Positions 12,536 to 60,057 of a DNA stretch of 64,000 nucleotides are shown piece by piece. A program made the position numbers and the translations under genes. The first letter of the stretch is position 1. Every line of letters begins with the position of its first letter. The notes below the pieces were generated by a model, which was not told the origin of the DNA, did not search any database, and saw nothing but the letters and a program-made list of their open reading frames with translations. This DNA is from Candidatus Sulfotelmatobacter sp. (GTDB taxonomy: Bacteria > Acidobacteriota > Terriglobia > Terriglobales > Acidobacteriaceae): the NCBI GenBank assembly GCA_036500765.1, contig DASYBM010000004.1, positions 1,922,001 to 1,986,000 on the forward strand. Reading direction: 5' to 3'.

Positions 12536-12563
12536 GGGTTGTTTAGAAGGATAAACCAGGGAT

Positions 12564-12637
12564 TCGGTCGTCGGTCGTTAGTCTTCGGTCGTTAGTCTTC
12601 GGTCGTTAGTCGTCGCTGTTAGTCGTCGGTCGTTAGC
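12564..12637. repeat. 14-bp tandem repeats (GTCGTTAG family)
   Basis: Unit TCGGTCGTTAGTCT at 12571-12584 and 12585-12598, then TCGGTCGTTAGTCG at 12599-12612, a 13-bp variant at 12613-12625 and a fifth partial copy to 12637. It lies between the priA start and the udg stop. The same motif builds the repeats at about 23921, 25871, 29374 and 50330. The complementary arm seen at those loci is missing here. A GCTTCGACT...CGCTCAGCGTCAT stretch follows (12668-12725), resembling the third family near the aldehyde dehydrogenase genes. Confidence 0.8.
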
Positions 12638-21162: not shown

Positions 21163-21289
21163 GTAGCGACGTCGTCCCGGCGGCGGGGCGTCTCGCCCGC
21201 CGCGCCTCATTTCCTCGAAAAGTCTAAGCGGTCTCTTGCTCTCCGAGAGCGGGACGCTCTCGGGACAGCCGGCGAGACGCCGGCGCTAC
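21163..21289. repeat. GTAGCG...CGCTAC palindromic element
   Basis: Starts GTAGCGACG and ends CGGCGCTAC. Inside are stems such as GCGGGGCGTC/GGCGGGC, GAGAGCGGGACGCTCTC and GCCGGCGAGACGCCGGC. Related copies are at 33001-33178 and 54706-54752. The rest of this 393-bp gap (21290-21548) holds a T6 run at about 21327, the CACTGATCACTGATT near-repeats (21484-21514) and a GGAGAG ribosome site; I see no gene. Confidence 0.7.
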
Positions 21290-23920: not shown

Positions 23921-24007
23921 TGTCGGTCGTTGGTCGTCAGTCGTCGGCTAAACATCAATCTCGTCAGCCGTCGTCGCTAACGACGGACGACCGAAGGCCG
24001 ACGACGC
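23921..24007. repeat. GTCGTTAG-family imperfect inverted repeat between rpoN and hpf
   Basis: The left arm GTCGGTCGTTGGTCGTCAG with TCGTCGGCTAA (23922-23951) faces a right arm with CGCTAACGACGGACGACCG and GGCCGACGACG (23975-24006), its imperfect complement. It could fold as a long stem in the spacer between rpoN and hpf. Confidence 0.75.
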
Positions 24008-24009
24008 CT

Positions 24010-25869
24010 TTATTTCTTCACTCTCCGCTGGTGCGTGCTCGGAATGCGCATATCTTCGCGGTATTTAGCAACCGTGCGGCGAGTCACCTGAATGCCCTGT
24101 GATTGCAGAATCCGCGTGATCTGCTCGTCGGTCAGCGGACGGCTGGGATCTTCTTCCTCGATGAGCTTCTTGACCCGGCGTTTGAGGATCAGCAGCGATG
24201 TGCCACCGCCCTCCGGACCCTGCACGCTCTCGCTGAAGAAATACCGCAGCTCGAATACGCCCTGGGGAGTGTGGGCGTACTTGTTGGCCACAGCCCGGCT
24301 TACCGTCGAAGGATGCACGCCGATTTCTTCGGCCACCTCCTTGATCATCATGGGTTTCAGTTGATCGATGCCTCGTTCGAGAAAATCCTGCTGGCGGGCG
24401 ACGATGACATAGCAGACTTTTGTGATCGTCTGCTTGCGCTGCTCGATGTTCTTGATGAGCTGAATTGCGCTCTTGTAGCGCTCTTTGACGTAGTCGCGCG
24501 TGCTCTTTTCATTGACGCCGTCGCGCGTCACTAATTTCTTGTAAGCCGGATTCAGGCGCAGCTGCGGCAGGTCTTCGTCGTTCATGATCACGAGCCACTC
24601 GTCGCCGTGCTTCACGAAAGCGACGTCAGGCTCGATGAGGCGCGCCTGTACTTTGTTGTAGCGCAGACCGGGACGGGGATCGAGCGTACGAATGTAATCG
24701 AGCGCCGCTTGCACGGCTTCAATGGGACGGCCGATCGCCTTGCCGATCTCTTTGTGCTGCTTATTTTGCAGGCCGCGTAGATGCTGGTCGACCACAGCCA
24801 TCGCGTCCTGCAAAAGTTGTGCCGTGCCGTTGCCGTTCTTGTGCAGTGCGAGCTGGGCCTGATGATAACGAAGCTGGTGAAGCAGGCAATCGCGCAAATC
24901 CCTGCAAGCCACGCCGGGCGGATCGAGTTGGCGGACGACTTCCAGCGCCTCGTGCAGATCGGCGGCGGTGAAGTTGGGCCTGTAAATCGAGGCTGGCTGC
25001 GACGTGCGGTCGGGCGCGGGAGCCGTCGCGGCAGCGGAATTACCGGAGCGGGTCGAGAAAGATGCTTCCGGGTGCGGCTCCGCTGGCGGCAAGATCCCGG
25101 CAACGTCGCTGTAGCCTGCATCGACATTCGCCGCGTTGATGAGATCGGCGCTAAGTTCTACGCTCTTATCGATTTCGACAGAGTCGCCTTCGTTAGAATC
25201 GGCGATCCCTTCAAGCTCTGAAGCTTCTTCGCTCTCGGCTTCCGGCTCGGAGGCGACCTCCGTCAAACCCAGCGCTTGCGCCTCGTTGACAATATTCTTT
25301 GCGGTTTCCGCATCGGCCTCGGGCGCCGCAGGTGGAGCTATACCAAGTAACTCCTCATCACTGGCGATCAGGTATCCGTCTTCATTCAAATTGCCGATGA
25401 TCACGTCGGCGGCTTCGCGCACCTCCGGGCGCAGGCTGAGCGCGCCCAACTGCCAGGCCAGGTGATCCGTAAGATTCGTGGGCTTGGAGAGAAAATTCTC
25501 AAACGAAGGACGCTCAATGTCCTCCATCTCGCTGTGCGTCCGGTAACCGGGATCGAGATAATCCTGGAAGAACGAGCCGAAATCGATCTCTTCGAACGGA
25601 TCTTTCTTTTCGACCGCGGCGATGGGATTTTCTTCGGTGCTGGCGGTAGCCGCGCGCTCGCGATCTTCTTCTTTCTTCCCGACTTCGTCGAGCAGAGGAA
25701 CTGAGTCTTCGAGCTCTTCGAGAACGGGGTTCTCGACCATCTCGGCGTTGATCATGTCTTTGAGCTCAAGCTTGTTGAGCGCAAGGACAGAAACCATCTG
25801 CACCAGCCCCGGAGTGAGGATCTGGCGCTGCGAGAGCTTTACGTTGAGCCTGTGTTGAAGAAGAACCAT
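24010..25869 (-). CDS. rpoN: RNA polymerase sigma-54 factor
   Basis: 619 residues, longer than the usual 430-500. Region I is Gln/Leu-rich (LSQRQILTPGLVQMVSVLALNKLELKDMI). The core-binding and helix-turn-helix region includes VAEEIGVHPSTVSRAVANKYAHTPQGVFELRYFF. The C-terminal RpoN box is RRTVAKYRE (about 601-609). The extra length is an acidic, Ala/Glu-rich region II at about residues 170-300. Sigma-54 directs -24/-12 promoters and needs an AAA+ activator, none of which is in this window. It sits downstream of lptB and upstream of hpf. Confidence 0.95.
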   Translation of the reverse strand: MVLLQHRLNVKLSQRQILTPGLVQMVSVLALNKLELKDMINAEMVENPVLEELEDSVPLLDEVGKKEEDRERAATASTEENPIAAVEKKDPFEEIDFGSFFQDYLDPGYRTHSEMEDIERPSFENFLSKPTNLTDHLAWQLGALSLRPEVREAADVIIGNLNEDGYLIASDEELLGIAPPAAPEADAETAKNIVNEAQALGLTEVASEPEAESEEASELEGIADSNEGDSVEIDKSVELSADLINAANVDAGYSDVAGILPPAEPHPEASFSTRSGNSAAATAPAPDRTSQPASIYRPNFTAADLHEALEVVRQLDPPGVACRDLRDCLLHQLRYHQAQLALHKNGNGTAQLLQDAMAVVDQHLRGLQNKQHKEIGKAIGRPIEAVQAALDYIRTLDPRPGLRYNKVQARLIEPDVAFVKHGDEWLVIMNDEDLPQLRLNPAYKKLVTRDGVNEKSTRDYVKERYKSAIQLIKNIEQRKQTITKVCYVIVARQQDFLERGIDQLKPMMIKEVAEEIGVHPSTVSRAVANKYAHTPQGVFELRYFFSESVQGPEGGGTSLLILKRRVKKLIEEEDPSRPLTDEQITRILQSQGIQVTRRTVAKYREDMRIPSTHQRRVKK

Positions 25870-25870
25870 G

Positions 25871-25991
25871 TCGTCGGCTTTGGTCGTCGGTCGTTAGTCG
25901 TTGGTCGTTAGTCGTTACTCGCCGGTCATTCGCCACTGGCCTCTGTTCGTTTGGATTTTGCCAACGACCGACGACTGGCGACCAACGACGC
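25871..25991. repeat. GTCGTTAG-family imperfect inverted repeat between lptB and rpoN
   Basis: The left part repeats GGTCGTCGGTCGTTAG and TTGGTCGTTAGTCGTTAC units. The right part (about 25960-25990) holds CCAACGACCGACGACTGG and CGACCAACGACG, the complement. The spacer between these two co-directional genes consists almost wholly of this element. Confidence 0.78.
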
Positions 25992-29352: not shown

Positions 29353-29373
29353 CTGGGTTAAGTGTAATGCAGG

Positions 29374-29548
29374 CTTCGGTCGTCAGTCGTCAGTCTTCAG
29401 TCTTCGGTCGGCGGTCATTCGTCGTTGGTCATTCGTCGTTAGTCGTTCGTCGTTAGCCGATGGTCGTTAGTTAAACCTTTCAGCCCGGATGTGTGTTGGC
29501 GGCGAGGGGCCAACGACCGACGACTAACGACCGCCCAGCGACCAACGC
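29374..29548. repeat. Large GTCGTTAG-family array between divergent genes
   Basis: About 100 bp of GTCGTCAG, GTCATTCGTCGTT and GTCGTTAG variants (29374-29470) are followed by the complementary arm CCAACGACCGACGACTAACG (29510-29529) and CGACCAACG. It fills the 218-bp gap between the LptC/A start and the ABC ATPase start. Any promoters for those two genes must lie within or beside it. Confidence 0.78.
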
Positions 29549-33000: not shown

Positions 33001-33178
33001 GTAGCGCCGGCATCCCTTCGACTCCGCTCAGGGCAGGCCCTGCCGGCTGTCCCGGGGGCGTCCCGCCCTCGGCGTCGGTGAGCGACGATCAGCTTAAACC
33101 TTTTGCAGAGTATTTGCTTCCAGCGCGGCGGGCGAGACGCCCGCCGGACAGCCGCCGGGACGGCGGCAGCTACTTGCC
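33001..33178. repeat. GTAGCG...GCTAC palindromic element with a nested CCTTCGACT repeat
   Basis: Starts GTAGCGCCGGC and ends GGCGGCAGCTAC. Compared with 54727-54752 (reverse complement), the small loop between the two GCCGGC arms is replaced by a stretch carrying CCTTCGACTCCGCTCAGGG (33015-33033). It fills the whole gap between the recJ start and the next gene. Confidence 0.75.
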
Positions 33179-38860: not shown

Positions 38861-38950
38861 CGCGTGGCCCCGGACGCATTTGTCCGGGGGAAAAATGGCA
38901 CAGACGGGTGTACGAGGCTGGCGGACGAATGCGTCCGCCGCCACGTGATT
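38861..38950. repeat. Complete CACGTGG palindromic element
   Basis: The left arm CGTGGCCCCGGACGCATT (38863-38880) continues TGTCCGGGG. The right arm GGCGGACGAATGCGTCCGCC is followed by GCCACGTG (to 38947). Each arm is itself a stem (GGACG/CGTCC) and the two arms are inverted copies. It lies between the ribokinase stop and the receptor start. Confidence 0.8.
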
Positions 38951-48156: not shown

Positions 48157-49131
48157 CTATCGCAGAGCTCGATACAACATCTCTTTCCATCGTCGGTTAT
48201 CGATAGTCCAACAGACCTTGGCTCGACCCTTCGCAATGGCAGTCGTCCACACCGTCCGGTTGCGTTCATCGTCGGCGACATTCAGGCGATCAACTACGGT
48301 CATCCCTCGCGTGAGTTCACTCTCAGTTTCGACCTCGACATAGTGTTCGCTCGAGTCGGTGCCTATTGCGGGATCAAGCGCGAGACACATGGCGACCGGA
48401 TCGGGCAGGCAGATGCCGTCTTCACCAGTCTGAATCTTGTAGGCGACCCGCGCGTGGCTGTTGCACTCGATAGCGAAGCGGGCGAGCGGCGTGTTGAATT
48501 TCTCCACCTGCGCAATGTCGCTGGGAGTGAGTACAGCTTCACCGCGGCAGAGATGCCAGCCGATCAGTTCGACGGCGAGGCCGCTTCGCATCACGATGGC
48601 CGCTGCGTCGGGGTCGACCCAGATGTTGTATTCGGCCGCGGGAGTCACGTTGCCTTCGCAGCACGGATTGCCGCCCATGATGACGCAGCGGCTGACCTTG
48701 CCCGCGATCGACGGCTGGCGCGAGAGCGCCAGCGCAATGTTGGTCAGCGGTCCCAGCGTTACGAGAACGAGTCCGGGATTCGCCTCAATGGTTTCGATGA
48801 TGGCATCGACCGCATGCGCTGGCTGCGGCGATTGCCGCGGCGCGGGATAGTTGTGGTCGCCCAGTCCGTCGCGTCCGTGAAACCAGGTTGCATTCTCATA
48901 CGCGCGCAGCAGCGGCTTGGCCGCGCCGGAATAAACGGGCACGTTCGCTCCGCATAATTCAACGGTATAGAGCGCGTTGCGCGTCGCCTGGGCCACAGGA
49001 ACGTTGCCGGCAACGACAGTGATCGCGGCCACGCGGACGTCCGACGCTCGCAACGCCATAATGATCGCGACCGCGTCGTCAGAGGCGGTGTCGGTATCGA
49101 TGAGAAATGTGCGCGGCACGGGCGTAAGCAT
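48157..49131 (-). CDS. Inosine-uridine-type nucleoside hydrolase
   Basis: 324 residues, no signal peptide, so cytoplasmic. The calcium site is intact: FLIDTDTASDDAVAIIMAL (Asp12, Asp14, Asp18, Asp19). Other family blocks: ITVVAGNVPVAQATRNALYTVELCG, LVTLGPLTNIALALSRQP, CVIMGGN and AAEYNIWVDPDAA. It splits ribonucleosides into base and ribose, feeding ribokinase (38989). It contrasts with the exported, motif-altered relative at 33773. Base preference cannot be predicted. Confidence 0.93.
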   Translation of the reverse strand: MLTPVPRTFLIDTDTASDDAVAIIMALRASDVRVAAITVVAGNVPVAQATRNALYTVELCGANVPVYSGAAKPLLRAYENATWFHGRDGLGDHNYPAPRQSPQPAHAVDAIIETIEANPGLVLVTLGPLTNIALALSRQPSIAGKVSRCVIMGGNPCCEGNVTPAAEYNIWVDPDAAAIVMRSGLAVELIGWHLCRGEAVLTPSDIAQVEKFNTPLARFAIECNSHARVAYKIQTGEDGICLPDPVAMCLALDPAIGTDSSEHYVEVETESELTRGMTVVDRLNVADDERNRTVWTTAIAKGRAKVCWTIDNRRWKEMLYRALR

Positions 49132-49140
49132 AGCAGAAGG

Positions 49141-49280
49141 CTCACGTGGCCCCCGGACGCATTCGTCCGGGGAGGTGTCCCTAAGTACAGCGTCAGGACA
49201 CTATCCGTCGAGCCCGTTGACAGGCTGGCGGACCCTTCGACTTCGCTCAGGGCAAGCTGCGTCCGCCGCCACGTGATTCG
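49141..49280. repeat. CACGTGG element interrupted by a CCTTCGACTTCGCTCAGGG repeat
   Basis: Left arm TCACGTGGCCCCCGGACGCA TTCGTCCGGGG at 49142-49172. In the right arm GGCTGGCGGAC (49223-49233) and GCGTCCGCCGCCACGTG (49259-49275) are separated by 25 bp (49234-49258) holding CCTTCGACTTCGCTCAGGG. The intact copy at 38918-38947 has only GAAT there. Confidence 0.8.
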
Positions 49281-49342
49281 TACTCGACTTGTGGCATGCG
49301 GCCAAGAAGAGTACAGTTAACCGCTTTGCCACGGAGACCGGA

Positions 49343-50320
49343 ATGTTTACGCCGCCAAGTCTGACGATTGCGTTGTTGATGATGATCACCAGCGCCATCT
49401 GCTGGGGGTCCTGGGCCAACACTTTCAAGGGCGTCAAGAATTATCGCTTCGAACTTTTTTATTGGGATTATGCGATCGGAATTTTTCTGATCTCTCTCGT
49501 CCTCGCCTTCACCATGGGCAGCAGCGGCCACGATGCCAACAGTTTTCTGAACAACGTCGCCTCTGCCGGCCCGACCAACATGATTTCAGCTATGGTGGGC
49601 GGAGCGATTTTCAATCTGGCCAATCTGCTGCTGGTCGCGGCCATCGACTTGGCGGGGCTAGCGGTCGCATTTCCGGTTTCGATCGGAATCGCGCTGGTGG
49701 TCGGCGTTGTGCTGAATTACGTTCTGCAACCGCAGGGCAGCGCTCTGCTGCTGGCTGCGGGCGTGGCGTGCGCGCTGATCGCGGTGATTCTGGATGGCAA
49801 AGCTTACGGCAACCTGAAGCGCGCGGCCAGCGGAACGTCGCGCAAGAGCATTATCCTCTGCGTGGTTTCGGGAACGTTGATGGGCCTGTGGAGTCCGTTC
49901 TCGACCTACGCGATGACGCGCGGAAATCCGCTCACGCCTTACAGCGGCGTCGTATTTCTCACGCTGGGGGCGCTGCTGTCGTGCTTTATCTGGAACCTGT
50001 ATTTTATGAAGCATCCCATCGTGGGCGAACCGGTGAGCTTGAGCGGCTTTTTCGGCGGCCCGCCTTCGGGCCATTTGCTGGGATTGCTGGGCGGCGTGAT
50101 CTGGGGGCTGGGCACGGTTTTCAATCTGACCGCGGGCAAACTCACAGGACAGGCGATCTCCTATGCGATCGGGCAATCGGCTCCGATGGTGGCGGCGTTG
50201 TGGGGAGTGCTGGCGTGGAAAGAATTCGAGGGCTCGGGGGCGCGCGCAAAAATTTATTTAGCGTTGATGTTTGTTTTCTACGGGCTGGCTATTGTGCTGG
50301 TCGCGCGCGCGAACGGATAG
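49343..50320 (+). CDS. GRP/ureide-permease-like transporter (DMT superfamily)
   Basis: 325 residues from the ATG at 49343 (GGAG 6-7 bases upstream), with ten membrane segments. Segments such as AICWGSWANTFKGVKNYRFELFYWDYAIG, NLANLLLVAAIDLAGLAVAFPVSIG and GLLGGVIWGLGTVFNLTAGK fit the glucose/ribose-uptake and ureide-permease branch. Plant ureide permeases carry allantoin and uracil; bacterial GRP proteins carry sugars such as ribose. Either fits the nucleoside context, and I cannot choose between them. It is convergent with nupC and divergent from the nucleoside hydrolase. Confidence 0.75.
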   Translation: MFTPPSLTIALLMMITSAICWGSWANTFKGVKNYRFELFYWDYAIGIFLISLVLAFTMGSSGHDANSFLNNVASAGPTNMISAMVGGAIFNLANLLLVAAIDLAGLAVAFPVSIGIALVVGVVLNYVLQPQGSALLLAAGVACALIAVILDGKAYGNLKRAASGTSRKSIILCVVSGTLMGLWSPFSTYAMTRGNPLTPYSGVVFLTLGALLSCFIWNLYFMKHPIVGEPVSLSGFFGGPPSGHLLGLLGGVIWGLGTVFNLTAGKLTGQAISYAIGQSAPMVAALWGVLAWKEFEGSGARAKIYLALMFVFYGLAIVLVARANG

Positions 50321-50329
50321 GCAATCTGG

Positions 50330-50393
50330 TCGTTAGTCGTTGGTCTTAGGAGTCTTAGGCCTTCGCTAACGACTAACGACCAACGACTAACGA
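50330..50393. repeat. Perfect 16-bp inverted repeat of the GTCGTTAG family between convergent genes
   Basis: TCGTTAGTCGTTGGTC (50330-50345) and GACCAACGACTAACGA (50378-50393) are exact reverse complements with a 32-bp loop, followed by CGATTTT. It lies between two convergent stops and could end both transcripts. Confidence 0.85.
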
Positions 50394-54705: not shown

Positions 54706-54752
54706 GCGAGGGCGGGACGCCCTCGCGACAGCCGGCGGGACGCCGGCGCTAC
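54706..54752. repeat. Compact GCGAGGGCGGG / GCCGGCGGGACGCCGGC element
   Basis: GCGAGGGC (54706-54713) pairs with GCCCTCGC, and GCCGGC (54731-54736) with GCCGGC after GGGAC, ending GCTAC. It is the short form of the element seen at 21163 and 33001. It sits between deoC and the ALDH16-type gene. Confidence 0.75.
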
Positions 54753-54768
54753 AAAAGATCGAACTGAA

Positions 54769-57225
54769 ATGAGTATCGCGGAAAAATTCGTTTCTATGGA
54801 GTACGGGCCTGCTCCCGAAGATCCGAAGGAGGCGCTGGTTTGGCTGGAGCGACACTCGCGCCGGTTTGGTCACTTTATCGGTGGAGTGTGGCAAGCTCCT
54901 GCGGCGGGAGAATACTTCGACACGATTGATCCTTCCAATGGTGAAAAGTTGGCGGCGATTGCCCAAGGCGGCGCCGCTGACGTTGACGCCGCCGTTCGCG
55001 CTGCGCGCGCGGCGTCCCCAAAATGGCGCGCGCTCACGCCGCATGTTCGTGCTCGCTATCTCTATGCGCTCGCGCGGCTGGTGCAGAAGCATTCGAGGCT
55101 GCTGGCTGTTCTCGAAACCATGGACAACGGCAAGCCCATCCGCGAGAGCCGCGACATCGACATTCCTCTGGTGGCGCGGCATTTTTACTACCATGCTGGG
55201 TGGGCGCAGTTGCTGGAACAGGAGTTTCCAGGGTACGAACCGTGCGGCGTCGTTGGACAAATTATCCCGTGGAATTTTCCGCTGCTGATGCTGGCTTGGA
55301 AGATTGCGCCGGCGCTGGCCACGGGAAACACGGTCGTGTTGAAGCCCGCCGAATTTACTCCGCTGACCGCGCTCGTGTTCGCGGAACTTTGTCTTGAAGC
55401 GGAATTGCCGGCTGGCGTCGTCAACATCGTGACTGGCGACGGCTCGACGGGCGAGGCGCTGGTAAAGCATCCGGATGTGGACAAGATTGCATTCACGGGC
55501 TCGACTGAAGTGGGACGCGCCATTCGTGGTGCGACGGCTGCGAGTCATAAGAAGCTCTCGCTGGAACTGGGCGGCAAGTCTCCGTTCATTATTTTCGAAG
55601 ACGCCGACCTCGATAGCGCAGTCGAGGGCCTGGTCGATGGAATCTGGTTCAATCAGGGGCAAGTGTGCTGCGCGGGCTCACGCCTGCTGATGCAGGAAAG
55701 CATCGCGGAGCCGCTGATGGCGAAGATTCGCGACCGCATGAGCACGCTGCGTATTGGATCTCCGCTGGATAAGGCGATCGACATTGGCGCGATTGTGGCG
55801 CGTGTGCAACTGGAACGCATCGAGCGCATGGTGGCGCAAGGCGTTGCGGACGGAGCGACTTGCTGGCAGCCGCAGGTTGTGCTGCCCGCGCGCGGATTTT
55901 TTTATCCGCCGACGCTGTTGAGCAATGTACATCCCACGTCGATTGTCGCGCAGCAGGAAATTTTCGGACCGGTGCTGGCGGCCATGACGTTCCGCACGCC
56001 GAAAGAAGCCGTTGAACTCGCCAACAACACGGTGTATGGCTTAGCGTCGTGCGTGTGGAGCGAGAACATCAACGTCGCGCTGCACGTGGCCGCGCAAATC
56101 AAGGCTGGGGTGGTGTGGGTGAACTGCACGAACATGTTCGACGCGGCCTGCGGCTTTGGCGGATATCGCGAGAGCGGATATGGCCGCGAAGGCGGACGCG
56201 AAGGGCTGATGGAGTATATGGAGCCTTCTTGGTTCAAGCATGCGACGAAGTTGGCTCCTACAACACCAGAAGAGAAGTCCTCACCCTTCGACAAGCTCAG
56301 GGCAGGCTTTCTCGCAACAGACGCGAGAAGTGGGGCACCCAGCGATGGGGCACGCAGCGCGGATGAGGCTGACGCTTCCGCCCCTGCGATTGACCGCACG
56401 GTGAAGCTTTACATTGGCGGAAAGCAGGCGCGTCCGGACTCGGGCTACAGCATGGAAGTTCGATCGGCGGATGGACGACTTCTGGGCGAAGCTCCTCTGG
56501 GCAATCGCAAAGATATTCGCAACGCCGTGGAAGCGGCGCGCAAGGCTGAAGCGTGGGGCAAGGCTACTGGGCACAACCGCGCGCAGGTCCTCTATTACTG
56601 CGCGGAGAATCTGGCGCAGCGCCAGAACGAGATCATTCATCGCCTGGCGGCAGCGGTCGAGGAGAAACAGGCTGCGGCGGAAGTCGAGCTCGGGATCGAG
56701 CGCATTTTTTCCTATGCGGCGTGGGCTGACAAGTTCGACGGGGCGGCGCACAATCCGCCGTTTCGTAATATTGCCATCGCGATGAACGAGGCCATCGGAA
56801 CGGTCGGCGTGATCTGCCCGACGGATGCACCCCTGCTGGGTTTTCTATCTTTAGTGCTGCCGCTGCTCTGCGTGGGTAATACGGTAATTGCCGTGCCCTC
56901 GGAGAAATATCCGCTCATCACCAGCGATCTCTACCAGCTTTTCGATACCAGCGATCTTCCCGGCGGGGCGGTCAACTTAGTGACGGGCTATGCGTCGCAA
57001 TTGCTGAAGACTCTTGCCGAGCATGACGACGTCGACGCGATCTGGTGCTACGGCGACGAGGCTACTGTCGCGGCCGCGAAGGCAATGTCTACCGGAAATC
57101 TGAAGCAAGTTTGGACCAATGAAGGCCGCGTCATCGACTGGTTCAATCCGAAAGTAGCGGAGGGGCGTTGGTTTCTGGAACATGCGACGCAGGTGAAAAA
57201 TATCTGGGTTCCCTACGGGGAATAG
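54769..57225 (+). CDS. Bipartite ALDH16-type aldehyde dehydrogenase
   Basis: 818 residues, two aldehyde dehydrogenase domains. Domain one (about 30-500) is complete: GVVGQIIPWNFPLLMLAWKIAPALA, FTGSTEVGRAI, the general-base Glu in LELGGKSP and nucleophile Cys300 (NQGQVCCAGSR). Domain two (about 545-818) keeps the NAD-fold pattern (EAIGTVGVICPTDAPLLGFLSLVLPLLCVGNTVI) but lacks a GQxC motif, so it is likely non-catalytic, as in ALDH16A1. The linker (about 505-545) contains SPFDKLRAG, the translation of a dispersed DNA repeat. It lies 98 bp after deoC; a reasonable substrate is acetaldehyde from that enzyme, but this is inference. Confidence 0.9.
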   Translation: MSIAEKFVSMEYGPAPEDPKEALVWLERHSRRFGHFIGGVWQAPAAGEYFDTIDPSNGEKLAAIAQGGAADVDAAVRAARAASPKWRALTPHVRARYLYALARLVQKHSRLLAVLETMDNGKPIRESRDIDIPLVARHFYYHAGWAQLLEQEFPGYEPCGVVGQIIPWNFPLLMLAWKIAPALATGNTVVLKPAEFTPLTALVFAELCLEAELPAGVVNIVTGDGSTGEALVKHPDVDKIAFTGSTEVGRAIRGATAASHKKLSLELGGKSPFIIFEDADLDSAVEGLVDGIWFNQGQVCCAGSRLLMQESIAEPLMAKIRDRMSTLRIGSPLDKAIDIGAIVARVQLERIERMVAQGVADGATCWQPQVVLPARGFFYPPTLLSNVHPTSIVAQQEIFGPVLAAMTFRTPKEAVELANNTVYGLASCVWSENINVALHVAAQIKAGVVWVNCTNMFDAACGFGGYRESGYGREGGREGLMEYMEPSWFKHATKLAPTTPEEKSSPFDKLRAGFLATDARSGAPSDGARSADEADASAPAIDRTVKLYIGGKQARPDSGYSMEVRSADGRLLGEAPLGNRKDIRNAVEAARKAEAWGKATGHNRAQVLYYCAENLAQRQNEIIHRLAAAVEEKQAAAEVELGIERIFSYAAWADKFDGAAHNPPFRNIAIAMNEAIGTVGVICPTDAPLLGFLSLVLPLLCVGNTVIAVPSEKYPLITSDLYQLFDTSDLPGGAVNLVTGYASQLLKTLAEHDDVDAIWCYGDEATVAAAKAMSTGNLKQVWTNEGRVIDWFNPKVAEGRWFLEHATQVKNIWVPYGE
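56284..56306 (+). repeat. CCCTTCGACAAGCTCAGGGC repeat captured in frame
   Basis: CCCTTCGACAAGCTCAGGGC AGG inside the linker of the ALDH16-type gene, read as SPFDKLRAG. It is a variant of the element at 33015, 49234 and 59227. Confidence 0.8.
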
Positions 57226-57276
57226 GGAGCCGTGTTGTGCTCGCGGGTTGGCTTTCGCGACGTGCCGGTTGAGCAT

Positions 57277-57321
57277 GAGATCCTTCGCTTCGCCTGAAAA
57301 ACGGCTCCGCTCAGGAGGACA
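57277..57321. repeat. GAGATCCTTCGC...GCTCAGGA element, copy 1
   Basis: GAGATCCTTCGCTTCGCCTG, AAAAACGGC, TCCGCTCAGGAGGACA. The same layout occurs at 59061-59107 and 59961-60010. The inner GCCTGAAAAACGGC piece and the CCTTCGC/GCTCAGG ends are constant. It lies 50 bp after the ALDH16-type stop. Confidence 0.7.
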
Positions 57322-57440
57322 ACTCCGCTAATATGTGACGCAGGTATGTGTAAGGCGACCCATTCGCAATTGCATTTCTTTTGCCTCGGCGCTAGCATAC
57401 CTCGGTCGCCTTCATTCGCCGGCATCATTACTTCCAAAGT

Positions 57441-59005: not shown

Positions 59006-59060
59006 GTGCGGGATTTGCAAGTACCGGTTGACAGTTTTGCTTTCCCGGCGGCGTTTACGC

Positions 59061-59107
59061 GGGAGATCCTTCGCTGCGCCTGAAAAACGGCTACGCTCAG
59101 GATGACA
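59061..59107. repeat. GAGATCCTTCGC...GCTCAGGA element, copy 2
   Basis: GGGAGATCCTTCGCTGCGCC, TGAAAAACGGC, TACGCTCAGGATGACA. It lies 55 bp after the aldehyde dehydrogenase stop, as copy 1 follows the ALDH16-type stop. Confidence 0.7.
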
Positions 59108-59149
59108 TCGCGATTATCAAACTGCATCCTGAGCAGTTTAAAAAATGAC

Positions 59150-59184: not shown

Positions 59185-59262
59185 AGGGGCTAAAGCCCGA
59201 AGATTTGTCGGGACTTCACGCGGCCCCTTCGGCTTCGCTCAGGGCAAGCTCTAAAGGGCCGC
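59183..59262. repeat. Composite repeat: GGGGCTAAAGCCC plus CCTTCGGCTTCGCTCAGGG in a palindrome loop
   Basis: TCAGGGGCTAAAGCCC at 59183-59198 matches the piece inside priA. Next, GCGGCCC (59220-59226) and GGGCCGC (59256-59262) form a stem whose 29-nt loop is CTTCGGCTTCGCTCAGGG followed by CAAGCTCTAAA. It lies just downstream of the pyrR stop. Confidence 0.75.
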
Positions 59263-59843: not shown

Positions 59844-59960
59844 TCAGGTTCATGCCTCTGCGGGCCGCGAGGCCGGCAACTCAATGTAGTCAACAGGACT
59901 CGCAGAGGTCAAGCGACGGTGGTGGAAATAGTGCACTCCGCGTACGCGCGGGATCGGTTG

Positions 59961-60010
59961 AGCGGGAGATCCCTCTCTTCGCCTGAAATGCGGCTCCGCT
60001 CGGGATGACA
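59961..60010. repeat. GAGATCC...GCTCGGGA element, copy 3
   Basis: AGCGGGAGATCCCTCTCTTC, GCCTGAAATGCGGC, TCCGCTCGGGATGACA, a diverged third copy between the diguanylate cyclase stop and the pyrR start. The rest of this 214-bp spacer shows no feature I can name. Confidence 0.65.
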
Positions 60011-60057
60011 ATCGCGGTTTTTAACACTCAATTCGCGGGAATCTAATCTGAGAGAAA

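Follow-up and report, generated by a model that had tools for sequence, protein, structure and literature searches.

A dispersed repeat of 24 or 25 nt (the module) was identified within other repeats of a Candidatus Sulfotelmatobacter genome, and this unit is very probably mobile. The window under study is a stretch of 64,000 nt, in which the focal copy sits in the tip of a larger palindromic repeat. Fixed boundaries, different hosts, empty and filled sites in both paralogous and orthologous positions, nesting of the module within itself and an in-frame copy in the mnmG gene were all demonstrated at the level of DNA sequence. Taken together, the statement that this is a mobile element of 24/25 nt, which moves in and out precisely at C^YT and has a Y1 nuclease as its proposed mover, is probably correct.

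The focal copy and its surroundings were read directly (Table 1). As first described, the stem GGCGGAC/GCGTCCGCC is split by 25 nt, and both the coordinates and the length proved correct (stem, 49227-49267; insert, 49234-49258). The sequence CCACGTG is located downstream of the 3' arm at 49269-49275. The family member at 38861-38950 reads GGCGGAC-GAAT-GCGTCCGCC, i.e. it has no module. A search of the genome with the stem pattern GGCGGACN{2,32}GTCCGCC produced 45 sites as compared to four for the reversed pattern. Loops of >10 nt were present in four of the 45 sites and a TTCGAC..GCTCA core was found in all four (one being diverged). Two of these long-loop sites have the CACGTGG-type stem and two have the stem GGCGGACACTC^(C/T)TGTCCGCC. 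An Rfam search of 48900-49500 (E up to 5) returned only two matches, both far below gathering scores.

Table 1. Features of the window: the focal element and its parts, an empty member of the same family and further module copies
Feature	Position	Strand	Remarks
Two-hairpin CACGTGG...CCACGTG element	49143..49275	.	Host of the focal module
Inner hairpin, 5' arm GGCGGAC	49227..49233	+	
Focal 25-nt module CCTTCGACTTCGCTCAGGGCAAGCT	49234..49258	+	Stands in for loop GAAT
Inner hairpin, 3' arm GCGTCCGCC	49259..49267	+	
CACGTGG-family copy	38861..38950	+	Inner loop GAAT (empty); left end CGCGTGG
Module copy	33015..33039	+	Ends GGCC not GGCT; in loop of GTAG-type hairpin GCCGGCATC^CTGCCGGC; J57
Module copy, 24 nt, AAG type	56285..56308	+	In 5' arm of CTCAC^TTCTCGC..GCGAGAAGTGGGG hairpin
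Module copy, 25 nt, TTCGGC variant	59226..59250	+	In hairpin GCGGCC^CTAAAGGGCCGC; J59

The module has the form CCTTCGAC(NN|TNC)GCTCAGGGCARGCT. Copy numbers were determined for the whole genome (5.04 Mb in 17 contigs), which belongs to the Ca. Sulfotelmatobacter group of the Acidobacteriota; named relatives of a neighbouring protein were from Candidatus Sulfotelmatobacter and other Acidobacteriota MAGs. The strict module (TTCGACN{2,5}CTCAGGGCARGCT) was detected in 57 copies with none for the reversed control. The core TTCGACN{1,8}GCTCAGG was present 74 times (control, 2) and a core with up to three mismatches 76 times (control, 5). Among 94 fully read copies, 42 were of 24 nt and 52 of 25 nt, the two types differing in the middle two or three bases. 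As these 94 copies were picked by a pattern fixed at most positions, paired changes are hardly visible there and the sameness of the copies elsewhere is partly built in; an unbiased measure of sameness is provided by the 57 strict as compared to 74 core matches in the genome. The module's own hairpin is weak, with RNA parameters giving -1.6 to -2.0 kcal/mol. At least one strict copy was present in 39 of 45 genomes of the genus, in 7 of 16 genomes from the family's other genera, in none of 14 from another family of the order and in 2 of 26 from elsewhere in the class, and the reversed strict pattern gave no matches across all 101 genomes. A second form, CCCCTTCGAC..GCTCAGG(G)(C)TGAA, was observed at five loci (L084, L121, L068, L049 and L152); this form is a module without the CAGGCT tail and replaces part of a GATCCTTCG host. 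Strict modules were also observed in 11 viral_contigs stretches (L418-L428), of which L424, L426 and L418 represent one common context, L418 having a different middle base.

The boundaries of the module were examined using 92 copies read with their flanks, and one set of ends was observed in different hosts. Clustering of 86 junctions (56 from this genome and 30 from genome G005) produced 14 groups of at least two members and 31 singletons; as some groups are branches of one family, the host families are counted as about ten. These hosts comprise GAGATC^CTTCGCT..GGATGACA, CCCCAC^TTCTCGC..GCGAGAAATGGGG, GGCGGACACTC^(C/T)TGTCCGCC, GCCGC^TTCGCGGC, GGACAGCCGC^CTCGGCTGTCC, the REP pair CGAGGGCGAGACGCC^CTCG, GCCGGCATC^CTGCCGGC (some copies of which are preceded by GTAG), GCGGCC^CTGAAGGGCCGC, CAGGTCC^CTC.., TAGATC^CTTCGG.. 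and the CACGTGG family. Insertion takes place at C^YT, with C at position -1 in 52 of the 56 copies from this genome and in 27 of the 30 from G005, C or T at position +1 in 49/56 and 28/30, respectively, and T at position +2 in 47/56 and 25/30.

Excision was performed in silico for 60 strict copies, the 32 of 92 copies failing the strict form being left out. The restored sequence was matched elsewhere in the sampled DNA of the genome for 30 of the 60 copies, and for 29 when the cut was placed one base to the left (i.e. at the ends used for all coordinates). The number of matches fell with other shifts of the cut, to 26 at +1, to 22 and 18 for shifts of 2 nt, to 8 and 6 for shifts of 6 nt, and to one for 12 nt in either direction. 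For the other 30 junctions, a genome-wide search yielded at least nine more spanning matches (J3, J5, J9, J10, J11, J28, J45, J49 and J55), a lower bound because scoring covered 40 of the 305 candidates from the first look. The best empty counterparts were identical over their full length for J47 (46/46), J59 (27/27) and J38 (26/26), and the counterpart of J57 was identical at 42 of 45 positions. In J29, a reversed module copy lies inside another module at CCC^TGAG and its excision generated a 41/41 match to an unbroken copy.

Empty and filled sites were then compared between sister genomes G005 and G014, whose orthologs of the focal locus share 92.9% identity across 3.26 kb. G005 contains 28 strict copies, of which 23 were compared with G014 and five had no two-sided ortholog. 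At eight of the 23 sites, G014 exhibited a single gap of the module's own length, i.e. 24 nt for copies of the 24-nt type (L269, L275, L288 and L289) and 25 nt for copies of the 25-nt type (L272, L273, L283 and L293). Both flanks were well aligned for L269, L272 and L275, and also for L288 bar a further 12-nt gap; one or both flanks were diverged for L273, L283, L289 and L293, with L283 the worst. Five sites were filled in both genomes (L277, L279, L286, L290 and L292), L279 with a one-base gap. The other 10 pairs were counted as neither exact-empty nor filled-in-both: at L281 a split gap amounts to a net 24 nt, L267 likewise has split gaps in a messy alignment, L276 and L280 are diverged, and six were unaligned (L268, cut by unknown bases, and L270, L271, L274, L282 and L284). 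No target duplication was visible at the gap ends of the G005/G014 alignments beyond a one-base ambiguity. Presence in one species combined with clean absence from its sister at several places indicates that the module behaves like a very small movable element. The preliminary description had held that one repeat family entered, or was swapped into, the hairpin tip of another, and had suggested a mobile process; entry of a small repeat into other families through mobility is borne out by the empty counterparts within the genome and at orthologous sites of the sister.

The direction of change was read from outgroups at four loci (L269, L281, L288 and L289) among 30 alignments, most others being too diverged; L272 looks empty in G019 as well. 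L269 is filled in G021 and G024 (with a variant in G004), so its emptiness in G014 is most simply explained by loss, and a shorter hairpin without the module in G001 leaves another reading. L289 is empty in both G021 and G014 and filled in G005, so G005 most simply gained this copy. At L281, G024 carries the module and both G014 and G021 have an empty site; L281 was not present in G004, G025 or G001. At L288, G024 has a diverged filled form, G025 has an empty site, and in G021 the loss extends to part of the hairpin. These patterns indicate both gain and loss, or recurrent use of one site, and the patchy distributions of L281 and L288 could derive from recombination between species or between repeats.

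One filled site is located in a conserved gene. L281 lies in frame in a G005 open reading frame matching the C-terminal domain of MnmG/GidA (PF21680, E 5.1e-7). Extra residues containing ACPERSRR are present in MnmG of G005 and G024 (L409), and there are none in G014 (L320) and G021 (L402). An in-frame module in mnmG indicates that insertion does not strictly depend on a hairpin repeat.

Identical boundaries inside mnmG and in some ten host families whose arms differ are difficult to attribute to gene conversion or template switching among dispersed hairpin repeats, by which the module would be carried passively as a unit without dedicated mobility. This is the strongest of the alternatives, and an unlikely one. 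It draws on the number and similarity of the host repeats and on the patchy presence of L281 and L288 among relatives. The arms at L275/L311 are, however, specific to that locus and do not differ between the two sides of the gap, and four other loci with similar arms that were examined (L177, L184, L348 and L210; two alike) carry different arms. Two further points in favour of conversion come from the focal family itself, in which the filled hairpin is dispersed in the genus and the loop represents a swap (GAAT lost) and not an addition.

In most other host families the module is a pure addition; as GAAT is gone from the focal family, plain insertion does not account for the focal copy. The focal locus was sought in relatives, with 19 loci tried and both flanking genes anchored in five; its neighbours encode a nucleoside hydrolase and a ureide-permease-like protein. 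Neither the module nor a CACGTG-ended element was found in the intergenic space of these five anchored relatives, where the anchor-to-anchor distance was 32-76 nt as compared to about 150 nt here; G018 has a short GGACGAGGCGTCC hairpin in this space. In-place insertion of the focal copy was dropped as an explanation because the entire element is missing from the anchored orthologous space and clean ends are not seen. More than 30 examples of the filled focal hairpin were found among the matches listed, both elsewhere in this genome and in further members of the genus. With the filled hairpin dispersed and the whole element absent from the anchored relatives, a CACGTGG element that was already filled most likely arrived at the focal locus; the hairpin would probably have been filled once and afterwards copied around as a filled unit.

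A preference for hairpin loops had also been proposed, and this claim stands in part. By plain folding, the junction was in a hairpin loop for 26 of 56 own sites as compared to 827 of 2251 C^YT sites chosen at random, even though the host regions fold more strongly (mean of -8.0 versus -4.6 kcal/mol over 44 nt). Plain MFE folding was rejected as a loop test since it detected this little bias, whereas a strict test did detect enrichment. With a perfect stem of at least 6 bp and the junction in a loop of up to 10 nt, strict tips were observed for 20 of 86 module sites, as compared to 78 of 3000 C^YT sites taken at random (Fisher P 5e-13) and 12 of 236 C^YT sites in the neighbourhood (Fisher P 7e-6; copies of one host family are not independent). 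The other 66 of the 86 module sites are not strict tips. Hairpin tips are enriched, yet represent a minority of sites; the enrichment upholds the proposed preference, and the non-tip majority and the near-control share in plain folding do not.

The proposed search of the genome for Y1/HUH transposases produced seven matches to PF01797 (Y1), of which the six listed are all outside the window. Within the genus, 43 of 45 genomes contain PF01797. The number of modules correlated with the number of Y1 matches across these 45 genomes (Spearman 0.46, P 0.002), a value that ignores phylogeny, assembly quality and the clustering of intergenic repeats, and across the 27 genomes of at least 90% completeness (0.46, P 0.017), again ignoring phylogeny. 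Four strict modules were located in 46 Y1 loci (part of all matches) as compared to 0.57 expected (P 0.003, uncorrected for shared ancestry and repeat clustering). No strict module copy was found alongside the six Y1 genes of this genome whose loci were fetched. When the 45 genomes were split by the best-scoring Y1 type among the matches listed, a difference was observed (Mann-Whitney P 0.0009; 23 versus 22 genomes), with some module-rich genomes left without the type. A single responsible RAYT was not found; modules occur near Y1 genes of several types. At one locus (L359, G035:C148), a 157-aa Y1 reading frame has inverted module-like sequences on both sides, the downstream one being strict.

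TnpA_REP enzymes are reported to cut single-stranded REP DNA at CT, and in one case also at CA, with the GTAG motif taking part in site choice by the CT/CA-cutting enzyme (PMC8266576). The insertion point C^YT is compatible with CT cleavage, and the module itself is without GTAG: column counts for the 94 pattern-selected copies contained no GTAG (or GTRG) foot of the kind found in REPs. On the features examined, the module was thus rejected as a GTAG-REP. An IS200/IS605-type element or MITE, for which hairpins near either end and a target of four or five nucleotides are expected, was also rejected, the module being 24-25 nt with at most one weak hairpin and a target of about three bases, C^YT. 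Among candidate movers, a CT-cutting Y1 (HUH) enzyme of the TnpA_REP/RAYT type is the likeliest; that a Y1 enzyme moves the module is, on the genomic associations above, a tentative proposal. In the favoured model, the module would enter and leave the genome precisely at C^YT, mainly in hairpin-forming repeats and often at their tips. Movement would take place on single-stranded DNA, where hairpins extrude, and cutting and joining would be carried out by a Y1 (HUH) nuclease of the TnpA_REP/RAYT kind.

A different route, by way of an RNA intermediate as is said of cyanobacterial SDR elements, appears improbable. The size of 24-25 nt and the nesting in other repeats and in itself (L095) do resemble SDR elements, but the gap ends lack a visible target duplication beyond the one-base ambiguity, and the loss at L269 with exact restoration of the empty site fits cutting and rejoining of DNA better.

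The distribution of the core outside the genus was also examined. A 20-nt core, CCCTTCGACAAGCTCAGGGC, with the tail GAACGG is present on plasmids of Sphingobium, Comamonas and Methylotuvimicrobium (L414, L415 and L416). It lies outside annotated genes in three of four plasmid regions read, those three representing three proteobacterial classes; the fourth region, from Rhodococcus, has a distant match only. Of 395 Acidobacteriota genomes, 148 contain the core pattern, many at chance level. These two observations are what favours chance or convergent selection, with CCTTCGAC..GCTCAGG being favoured at hairpin tips, as a stable loop or a site for a protein, and repeatedly arising or being kept there, an explanation rendered very improbable by the empty strict reversed control in all 101 genomes, by the whole-unit gaps between orthologs and by the tail GGCARGCT, which adds nothing to the tip yet in this genome mostly accompanies the core. 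The broadest form of the mobile-element reading is that the module is a self-contained reversible unit, moved exactly, as single-stranded DNA, by a Y1 enzyme at C^YT of extruded hairpins and now and then of genes, and that TTCGAC-NN(N)-GCTCAG, with varying tails, is the same element in Acidobacteriota and Proteobacteria; in this full extent it is doubtful. A literature search using six 14/15-mers of the core and the peptides that the core would encode produced nothing relevant, and TTCGA was absent from the main text of the RepRanger paper in a term search (PMC12306157).

Other repeats were observed in the window. Repeats of the form GATCCTTCGCT..GCTCAGGATGACA are present at 57251-57322, 59037-59108 and 59940-60011, with a small hairpin, GCCTGAAAAACGGC, between the arms in two of the three copies; these are apparently another case of a hairpin within a hairpin. 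Paired hairpins at 21244-21289, 33127-33172 and 54707-54752 exhibit complementary stem differences between copies, as in GTAG-REP pairs, and two of the three end in GCTAC (GTAG on the other strand). Arrays of near-heptameric units (e.g. GTCGTTAGTCGTCGGTCGT) are located at 12549-12627, 23926-23944, 25865-25950, 29354-29474 and 50329-50347; cyanobacterial SDRs sit in heptameric repeats too.

If the broadest form of the mobile-element reading is true, the module would rank among the smallest mobile DNAs of bacteria and among the most widespread. The module touches on two old questions, namely how REP-like hairpins acquire new tips and how sequences too short for transposon ends can move. A defined unit of 24/25 nt makes boundaries, target and direction open to comparative genomics and to a simple Y1 cleavage assay. 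Should the core in other phyla prove to be this element, there would be a common explanation for a seemingly anonymous class of intergenic repeats in bacteria.

Searches of the literature on SDR, REP, nested or Acidobacteria repeats yielded only four parallels, i.e. SDR elements, REP/RAYT systems, REPs within palindromes and Rickettsia palindromic elements (RPEs). The SDR elements of Nostoc and relatives are reportedly very small mobile repeats of 21-27 nt (Elhai et al., 2008) that are said to sit in other repeats and to nest in themselves, with an RNA intermediate having been proposed. SDR4-6 have a common secondary structure backed by compensatory changes. The module is similarly dispersed at 24/25 nt and found inside other repeats and itself (J29), and resembles SDR elements in size, insertion into other repeats, self-nesting and precise site use. 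SDR elements belong to another phylum and have another target, whereas the module uses C^YT, mostly in hairpin repeats, and exhibits orthologous empty/filled pairs. As parallel small mobile repeats, SDR elements are described in PMC4390886 and PMC3116915, the former giving the insertion point of SDR5 as between nucleotides 3 and 4 of HIP1.

REP/REPIN sequences and their TnpA_REP (RAYT) enzymes are alike in the use of hairpin repeats, in the presence of Y1 genes in nearly all genomes of the genus and in CT cleavage as reported in PMC8266576, and some module hosts are GTAG-type hairpins (J12, J57 and L290), as in REPs. In contrast to a REP, the module is without GTAG, has no clean palindrome, is not regularly beside a Y1 gene and itself enters REPs. 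One family within another is also described in PMC3733652, where the GTAG-23 of T. roseum and the GTAG-15 of A. variabilis are REPs inside a small palindrome and T. roseum has many empty palindrome targets; there, a GTAG-REP enters one palindrome family, whereas here a non-GTAG unit of 24/25 nt enters about ten. The RPEs share with the module in-frame insertion in a conserved gene, here mnmG, and are given as 105-146 bp (PMC2229807), whereas the module adds a net 24 nt, i.e. eight codons, in the one case seen.
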